Assembly (NCBI GenBank): GCA_021817145.1
Contig: JAKAVV010000002.1
Coordinates: 1 to 64,000 of the forward strand
DNA from: a bacterium
GTDB lineage: Bacteria; Vulcanimicrobiota; JABDET01
DNA: 64,000 nt
Direction of reading: 5' to 3'
A program made the translations under genes and the position numbers. Positions 60,465 to 64,000 of this stretch are shown one piece after another (positions within the stretch are counted from its first letter, which is position 1; each line of letters opens with the position of its first letter). The notes under the pieces are model-generated. The model did no database searches and was not told where the DNA came from. It saw nothing but the letters and a program-made list of their open reading frames with translations.

Positions 60465-61997
<1,533 letters not shown>

Positions 61998-62083
61998 ACT
62001 AAAAAAAGAATTGATTTGACTATTTGACTAGATGCAATATTTAAACTGATTTTTCAAGGACCTATTACAATGAAGCAAAGAGT

Positions 62084-62112
62084 ATTATATCAGATAATTT
62101 TAAACTTGTCAA
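62084..62112 (-). promoter_or_regulatory. Perfect-consensus rRNA promoter
   Basis: Minus-strand TTGACA (62112-62107), 17-base spacer and TATAAT (62089-62084). Start expected near 62077, about 80 nt before the 16S 5' end. Confidence 0.85.
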
Positions 62113-62115
62113 GAG

Positions 62116-62144
62116 TTGTCCTTTTTTTTATTTTAGAGTATAAT
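62116..62144 (+). promoter_or_regulatory. Promoter of the structured RNA, back-to-back with the rRNA promoter
   Basis: Plus-strand TTGTCC (62116-62121), 17-base spacer and TATAAT (62139-62144), start expected near 62151. Its -35 box lies three bases from that of the rRNA promoter, so two polymerases can hardly occupy both at once. Confidence 0.6.
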
Positions 62145-62155
62145 AAAATTGAAAA

Positions 62156-62400
62156 TGCCTGCTGTGCTCGTGATGCGCGTTTCGCTTGGAGCCTAAAGAG
62201 CACATTTGGAAGCTTAACCGCCGATAATGGTGTTGAATGCCCTTCTCAAAAAGGGAATCCTGAAGTTATCGGGGGCTTCCCTACTTACGGGTAAAGGTTC
62301 CGTAAGCCACGATAAGCACACGGCTCAGCGGGCTCATTGGAGCTTGGATGAGCAGTCAGTGAATCGCCAAAAAGCAGCTGGCTGTCCTTTCCAACAGGCA
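62156..62400 (+). ncRNA. Unassigned structured RNA of about 245 nt
   Basis: No credible protein frame lies here, yet the plus strand can form a chain of perfect helices: closing stem TGCCTG (62156-62161)/CAGGCA (62395-62400); TGTGCTC (62163-62169)/GAGCACA (62198-62204); GGAAGC (62208-62213)/GCTTCC (62275-62280) enclosing CCGATAA (62221-62227)/TTATCGG (62266-62272) and CCCTT (62240-62244)/AAGGG (62251-62255); CTTACGG (62284-62290)/CCGTAAG (62300-62306); GCTCAT (62332-62337)/ATGAGC (62348-62353). A promoter with a TATAAT box sits directly before it. The signature motifs of RNase P, SRP, tmRNA and 6S RNA were not found. It converges on the protease gene. Confidence 0.5.
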
Positions 62401-62430
62401 GCGGTTTCGCATGATTCATTTGCAGCCAGG

Positions 62431-64000
62431 TTACAACCTAAAATTCGAATAAACAGGGCGTTTGGGCAATTTAACAGGATGCTCTTTCAGCTCTTTTAAA
62501 AGCGTTTGAACCGCAGTCTTCAGCTGCAAATCTTCCCCTTTTGCCAAGGATGTTGGCGTATTATGCGCCTTTATATTGGGAAGAACCCCCTGATTTTCGG
62601 GGAACCATTCCCCTTTTGGATTATACCATCGAAAAGATGGAACAGTAACCATTCCGCCATCTACAAGGGCAGGATTCCCTTCCATTCCAATTAATCCACC
62701 CCATGTTCGAGTTCCAATCACAAGTCCTACTTTTTCTTGTTTAAAAAGATAAGGGAAGAGATCTCCTCCTGATCCACTCCACCCATTGGTCAGCATGACT
62801 TTAGGACCAAAATTGGCTAAAAGAGGGGTTTGCAAATTCCCTTTCCCTCGGGTTGTAATAAACCCATATAAAGGCTGATTTAAAAGCTCAATAAAATGAT
62901 CTGGAATAAACCCGCCGGCATTAAATCTTTCATCAATAATCAACGCTTTTTTATTCCACTGGGCATAGAATTGACGAGCCAAATCTGTTAAACCCAAGGT
63001 TTCAGTATTCGGCACATAAATATATCCAATTTTCCCATCTGACCAGTTTGACACTTTTTGACGGTTAGATTCAATCCATGCCAGTTCTCTCAATTTCACA
63101 ACTTGCATAGGAGACAGAGTTTTTACTAAAATATTCCAGGATCCTTTGAATGTTGGATGATCATTAATGGTCAGTTGAACCGTTTGGTTTTCTAATCCAA
63201 CAAAAGGTTTCCAGGGATCCTGTTCAGGATTTAAATGAACTCCATTCACAGCTAAAATATAATCCCCCTGCTTCACTTTAACCCCTGGGACTGCTAAAGG
63301 GGATCGAACACTTGAGTTCCAAGGAGCTCCTTGAATAATTTTAGCGATTTGATAAGCCCCATGGTTTAATCTCCAATTAATTCCAAACAGTCCCACATTT
63401 TGATGTTCAGGATACTTCAATTCCCCTCCAAAAACAAAAAGATGGGAAGAGCTCAGTTCTGAAATCATTTGCCCTAAAAGCCAATTTAAATCATTCCGAG
63501 TAGAGCAGTCTTTGACAAGAGGGGCGTACTTTCGATAAATGGCATTCCAGTGGATGTGACTCATGTCAGGGGCATAATAGAAAGCTTTTTCAAAGGTCCA
63601 GGCATCCCGTAAGATCTGTTCCCACTGTTTCATCGGAACAACCCTCATTGTTAAATCGCTTAAATCTAAAGAAGAACTCAATGTCTGCATAGGGGCAAGA
63701 GGAATAATACTGTAAGATCCCTGCTGCCAAACTAAAAGTTTCTGATGATTTGCGCTTACATGATATCCATTGATTCCACTCACAATTTCTTCTGATTTTC
63801 GAGCATTTAAATCATAATAAAACAGCGTTCCTTCTGGTTGAGGAGAAGGCTGTCCTGGAAGCTGAAAATAAAGGAGTTTTCCTGGGGCTGTCTGCAAATG
63901 CATGTAATTTCCAGGAGGAACAGGGAGAAGCATCATTCTTTTTTCAAAGCCGCTGATTTCAATCTTTATTCCTGGATGAGCCTTTTTCTTTTGAGCTGAA
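62431..64000 (-). CDS. Tricorn-like S41 protease, N-terminal part outside the window
   Basis: The frame is open through the right edge (before Met 63936 it continues GIKIEISGFEKRM), so the start is missing; about 520 residues are seen. GFEKRMMLLPVPPGNY is the end of the beta-propeller part of Tricorn core proteases. Next come a helical C1-like domain (KAFYYAPDMSHIHWNAIYRKYAPLV), a PDZ-type domain (PGVKVKQGDYILAVNGV) and the S41 catalytic domain with the nucleophile Ser in TNGWSGSGGDLFPYLFK and GTRTWGGLIG. Such enzymes degrade oligopeptides made by other proteases. Its 3' end faces the structured RNA. Confidence 0.88.
   Translation of the reverse strand, partial: SAQKKKAHPGIKIEISGFEKRMMLLPVPPGNYMHLQTAPGKLLYFQLPGQPSPQPEGTLFYYDLNARKSEEIVSGINGYHVSANHQKLLVWQQGSYSIIPLAPMQTLSSSLDLSDLTMRVVPMKQWEQILRDAWTFEKAFYYAPDMSHIHWNAIYRKYAPLVKDCSTRNDLNWLLGQMISELSSSHLFVFGGELKYPEHQNVGLFGINWRLNHGAYQIAKIIQGAPWNSSVRSPLAVPGVKVKQGDYILAVNGVHLNPEQDPWKPFVGLENQTVQLTINDHPTFKGSWNILVKTLSPMQVVKLRELAWIESNRQKVSNWSDGKIGYIYVPNTETLGLTDLARQFYAQWNKKALIIDERFNAGGFIPDHFIELLNQPLYGFITTRGKGNLQTPLLANFGPKVMLTNGWSGSGGDLFPYLFKQEKVGLVIGTRTWGGLIGMEGNPALVDGGMVTVPSFRWYNPKGEWFPENQGVLPNIKAHNTPTSLAKGEDLQLKTAVQTLLKELKEHPVKLPKRPVYSNFRL

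Follow-up and report, generated by a model that had tools for sequence, protein, structure and literature searches.

Immediately upstream of its rRNA operon, and transcribed away from it, the 64,000-nt window analysed here encodes an RNA that a preliminary description took for a structured RNA of unassigned class without the signature of 6S RNA. Which RNA is this, and what might its position beside the rRNA operon mean? A search with the Rfam covariance models returned a match to RF00013 (6S/SsrS RNA) at 62153-62338 on the plus strand, spanning model positions 1-187 of 187 and scoring 70.9 bits where the gathering score is 46.4 (E 3.5e-13), and the 6S model had no second match anywhere in the genome. 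A strong Rfam match was the outcome that the preliminary description had itself named as telling against an unassigned class, and the supposed absence of 6S features, its one argument for a new kind of RNA, was mistaken. As related 6S genes are also found within the class, we regard a new RNA class as ruled out for practical purposes. Judged from the sequence by family, fold, its own promoter and the divergent layout, 62153-62338 encodes this bacterium's 6S RNA. The RNA is of an ordinary kind, resembling known 6S RNAs in length, in its rod of closing stem, central bubble and apical stem, and in its full-length model match; what is unusual is the address of the gene, divergent from the rRNA operon. 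In lactic acid bacteria the usual place of the 6S gene is between rarA and uspA (PMC8414754).

The rod-like fold was well preserved: of the 51 base pairs of the model, 48 have both partners present in this RNA, and 44 of them are canonical. When folded freely, 62151-62345 was more stable than its shuffled versions (z -2.56, 2 of 200 as good), and so were the 245 nt originally proposed as structured (z -2.15, 3 of 200). The seven short helices from which that structure had been argued do not carry the same weight, since the number of stems of at least 5 bp (29, compared to 22.4 ± 4.6 in shuffles generated by our own approximate dinucleotide-preserving procedure) was reached in 9 of 100 shuffles; the helix count is within chance and was discarded as evidence for an RNA. 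Fifteen 6S RNAs were aligned from 30 loci, those omitted being lower-scoring or from families already sampled. Paired cells amounted to 74.1% versus 66.9% after shuffling, and the covariation score to 0.294 versus 0.182, with none of 500 shuffles as high for either value. Two weaker measures pointed the same way: 19 pairs changed at both sides versus 15.3 (18 of 500 as high), and 67 further pair types versus 58 (7 of 500). Structures shifted by 1-3 columns reached at most 55.5% paired cells and a covariation score of 0.243, but for two of the five measures of covariation they equalled or slightly exceeded the true structure, with 20 both-side-changed pairs versus 19 for slides -1 and -2, and 60 both-side-changed cells versus 58 for slide -1. 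Covariation across the 15 relatives thus supports the 6S fold. A GAGCC motif is visible in the alignment, and by analogy with E. coli 6S RNA the template for product RNA would probably start within 62188-62198 (+), in the central bubble behind this motif, with 62194-62198 as the putative site.

The transcript probably begins near 62151, as predicted from the -10 box. Its end had been placed at 62400, which is too far, because the family match stops at 62338 and identity to a sister species of the same genus (G001; JAJYZB01, 'bacterium isolate FK4.bin95') collapses from 92% across 62153-62333 to 32% immediately behind. An imperfect hairpin at 62339-62440 (+) follows the gene; it is single-copy, weakly structured (z -1.94, plus strand) and missing in the sister species. 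It was rejected as a part of the 6S RNA, as in the sister species the closing stem is followed by a T run and not by this hairpin. No intrinsic terminator was found behind the 6S gene of the species under study in a scan of 61950-62500, where the sole terminator-like site lies within the gene itself, at chance level (1 versus 0.7). The region had also been described as without a reading frame, which holds only loosely: two purely mechanical frames overlap it, one of 74 aa at 62070-62294 and one of 90 aa at 62227-62499, and no gene-like marks were seen in either. Farther on, a convergent gene for a protein with tricorn-type PDZ, C1 and S41 peptidase domains occupies 62431-64000 (-); its frame runs on to about 65862 in contig numbering.

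Table 1. Position of the 6S RNA gene, the neighbouring rRNA genes and the two promoters in the window.
Feature	Position	Strand	Remarks
23S rRNA	downstream of 16S; 5' end reaches 60263	-	Rfam
16S rRNA	60468-61996	-	Rfam; first gene of the operon; sole 16S match of the genome
rRNA operon promoter, TTGACA-17-TATAAT	62084-62112	-	-35 62112-62107, -10 62089-62084; 12/12 consensus
Gap between the -35 boxes	62113-62115		3 bp, GAG
6S promoter, TTGTCC-17-TATAAT	62116-62144	+	-35 62116-62121, -10 62139-62144; 10/12 consensus
6S RNA (SsrS)	62153-62338	+	full-length RF00013; sole 6S match of the genome; covariation

Both promoters named in the preliminary description were confirmed as it gave them, including the perfect match of the rRNA promoter and the three bases between the back-to-back -35 boxes (Table 1). 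The scan of 61950-62500 listed 3 promoter-like sites compared to a shuffle mean of 0.6. RNA starts predicted from the -10 boxes are about 74 bp apart. As RNA polymerase usually covers about -55 to +20 of a promoter, two polymerases could not bind there together, and the two promoters are probably too close for simultaneous use.

The way in which this RNA would act can be read from known 6S RNAs, which have been described as rods with a central bubble that bind the RNA polymerase holoenzyme in competition with promoters and serve as template for product RNA (PMC8414754). By analogy, the RNA would mimic an open promoter, bind the housekeeping holoenzyme and hold it once growth stops, until synthesis of product RNA releases the polymerase. 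At the gene itself, because the -35 boxes are only 3 bp apart, one polymerase would cover both promoters, so that at any moment the site would start either rRNA or 6S RNA; the consensus rRNA promoter would win during growth, and 6S RNA would rise as rRNA initiation drops. The earlier guess of a growth-linked RNA opposed to rRNA came near the known role of 6S RNA. Loss of 6S RNA in E. coli lowers rRNA transcription in stationary phase and raises ppGpp (PMC2848244), and hence 6S RNA is more than a plain antagonist of rRNA. A proposed rule by which promoters with a weak -35 box are the ones sensitive to 6S RNA was set aside, since the studies disagree, one finding the rule and two others not (as related in PMC5982834). 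Most likely, then, ordinary action of 6S RNA on the polymerase is joined by a local effect in which each promoter excludes the other, as we infer from their geometry. Taken as a whole, a 6S RNA gene exerting control of the known type over polymerase, with probable either-or use of its promoter and that of the rRNA operon, is the best explanation of the locus, to which we assign a probability of roughly 0.9.

The layout was compared among relatives. In the sister species the 16S gene is also divergent from the 6S gene, with the same 156 bp between the RNA starts as in the genome under study. Its rRNA promoter has both boxes unchanged (27/29 positions identical), and its 6S promoter reads TTGTTC-17-TATAAT and keeps the 3-bp gap between the -35 boxes. 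Thus the boxes are kept although 5 of the 17 positions of the 6S promoter spacer have changed (12 identical), which favours the best explanation and makes promoter competition plausible; the gap that the alignment of both species places in the 6S -10 box arises because the sister species has one extra T behind it. Against this stands the occurrence of the layout in only two genomes, both of one genus; in the other genus of the family (G002) the genes are separate, 6S lying behind another open frame and 16S on a different contig. Upstream of the latter 16S gene (locus L033, G002:C58), three tandem TTGACA boxes were seen by eye, with -10-like hexamers 16-17 bp on.

At a wider scale, 6S RNA scored above the cut-off in all three genomes of the class examined and, in a phylum-wide search with stricter filters, which lose weak matches, at E <= 0.001 in 58 of 149 genomes (above the cut-off in 38). 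Linkage was counted with a pattern for the 16S 5' end, because a 16S covariance search (58 genomes) missed the sister species. This pattern detected 16S in 61 of the 149 genomes, and joining both lists left 22 genomes with both genes. The 6S gene adjoins 16S only in the two species of the genus; in a third genome (G009) both are on one contig, 1.4 Mb apart, and the remaining 19 have them on separate contigs, where a second, collapsed rRNA copy beside 6S is therefore possible. This rarity, 2 of 22 with both in one genus, together with 6S neighbour genes that vary between families of the phylum, would also be expected if a neutral rearrangement had brought the 6S gene beside the rRNA operon, the promoters being close without any useful mutual regulation. 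Since both species retain the two boxes of each promoter, and the 3 bp separating the -35 boxes, despite the diverged 6S spacer, we give such a neutral origin a serious chance, though one somewhat short of even. Among the papers listed by PMC full-text searches for a 6S gene beside an rRNA operon, or facing away from one, none describes this arrangement, judged on titles and the beginnings of abstracts and with most subscription journals outside the coverage. Two genomes of f7 have two tRNA genes divergent from the 6S gene, 185 and 275 bp off (L009 1875-2027, L014 1961-2117), so that 6S faces stable-RNA genes there as well; at the third f7 locus (L011) no tRNA is shown near 6S.

The short block around the two -35 boxes also has counterparts at other 6S promoters. 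CAA-N3-4-TTG is present between -75 and -16, counted from the start of the 6S model, in 34 of 58 loci (L001-L030, L037-L064), compared to a mean of 1.3 and a maximum of 7 in 1000 mononucleotide shuffles, the loci being related and so not counting as separate events; in a control window farther from the gene on the upstream side it was present in 1/58 (one window empty, one short). It was found in 13/13 loci of family f14, 12/17 of f8, 5/6 of f11, 2/3 of f7 and 2/3 of f1, and in none of 16 loci in nine other families. The narrower GTCAAG-W-CTTG occurs in 22/58, and 6 of the 17 f8 loci have a full 6-1-6 inverted repeat, GTCAAG-W-CTTGAC. Such an element could represent either an operator or a doubled -35 box, and a precedent is offered by the CcpA cre sites of lactic acid bacteria, likewise a pseudo-palindrome over the 6S -35 box (PMC8414754); the present element differs in sequence and phylum and is a candidate operator only. 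For the GTCAAG-like block at 62107-62119 itself, we consider it unlikely that it is a version of this element over and above an rRNA -35 box, because the repeat is imperfect in both species of the genus and two -35 boxes account for it, the family's other genus lacks the element like the nine families above, and its distance to the -10 box varies by family. Moreover, among the matches listed for 15 genomes, 10 of 48 copies of GTCAAG-W-CTTG are at 6S genes (8 genomes) and 38 elsewhere, compared to 16 for a reversed control pattern, so that the motif, though enriched at 6S genes, is not confined to them.

In place of an unknown RNA, the locus thus adds a 6S RNA from a bacterial class that has been little studied. 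With its single 6S gene and the sole rRNA operon detected on a shared promoter region, it constitutes a simple natural test case, raising the question whether a coupling in cis links 6S RNA and rRNA in addition to that via polymerase. More speculatively still than an operator at the block, the phylum's 6S-promoter element (GTCAAG-N-CTTG) might in this genus have become the -35 region of the promoter of the sole detected rRNA operon, a single polymerase-binding decision setting both; one site would then set ribosome synthesis and the level of a polymerase-restraining RNA together.

Some further features of the element were noted. A divergent promoter was discarded as the reason for the GTCAAG block of f14, as the five loci inspected by eye (of 13) have no good -10 box on the opposite strand at a spacing of 17 bp. 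Some copies of GTCAAG-W-CTTG in G009 belong to one repeated stretch. Fifteen of the 38 places away from 6S were inspected, and at each of them one or more of the six frames is open over a long stretch, which has little meaning in GC-rich DNA. By reading, two of these 15 copies are upstream of tRNA-synthetase-like frames (G001 L072, G107 L077), and four of five copies of the element in f11 sit where an upstream frame resembling ribosomal protein S20 ends.
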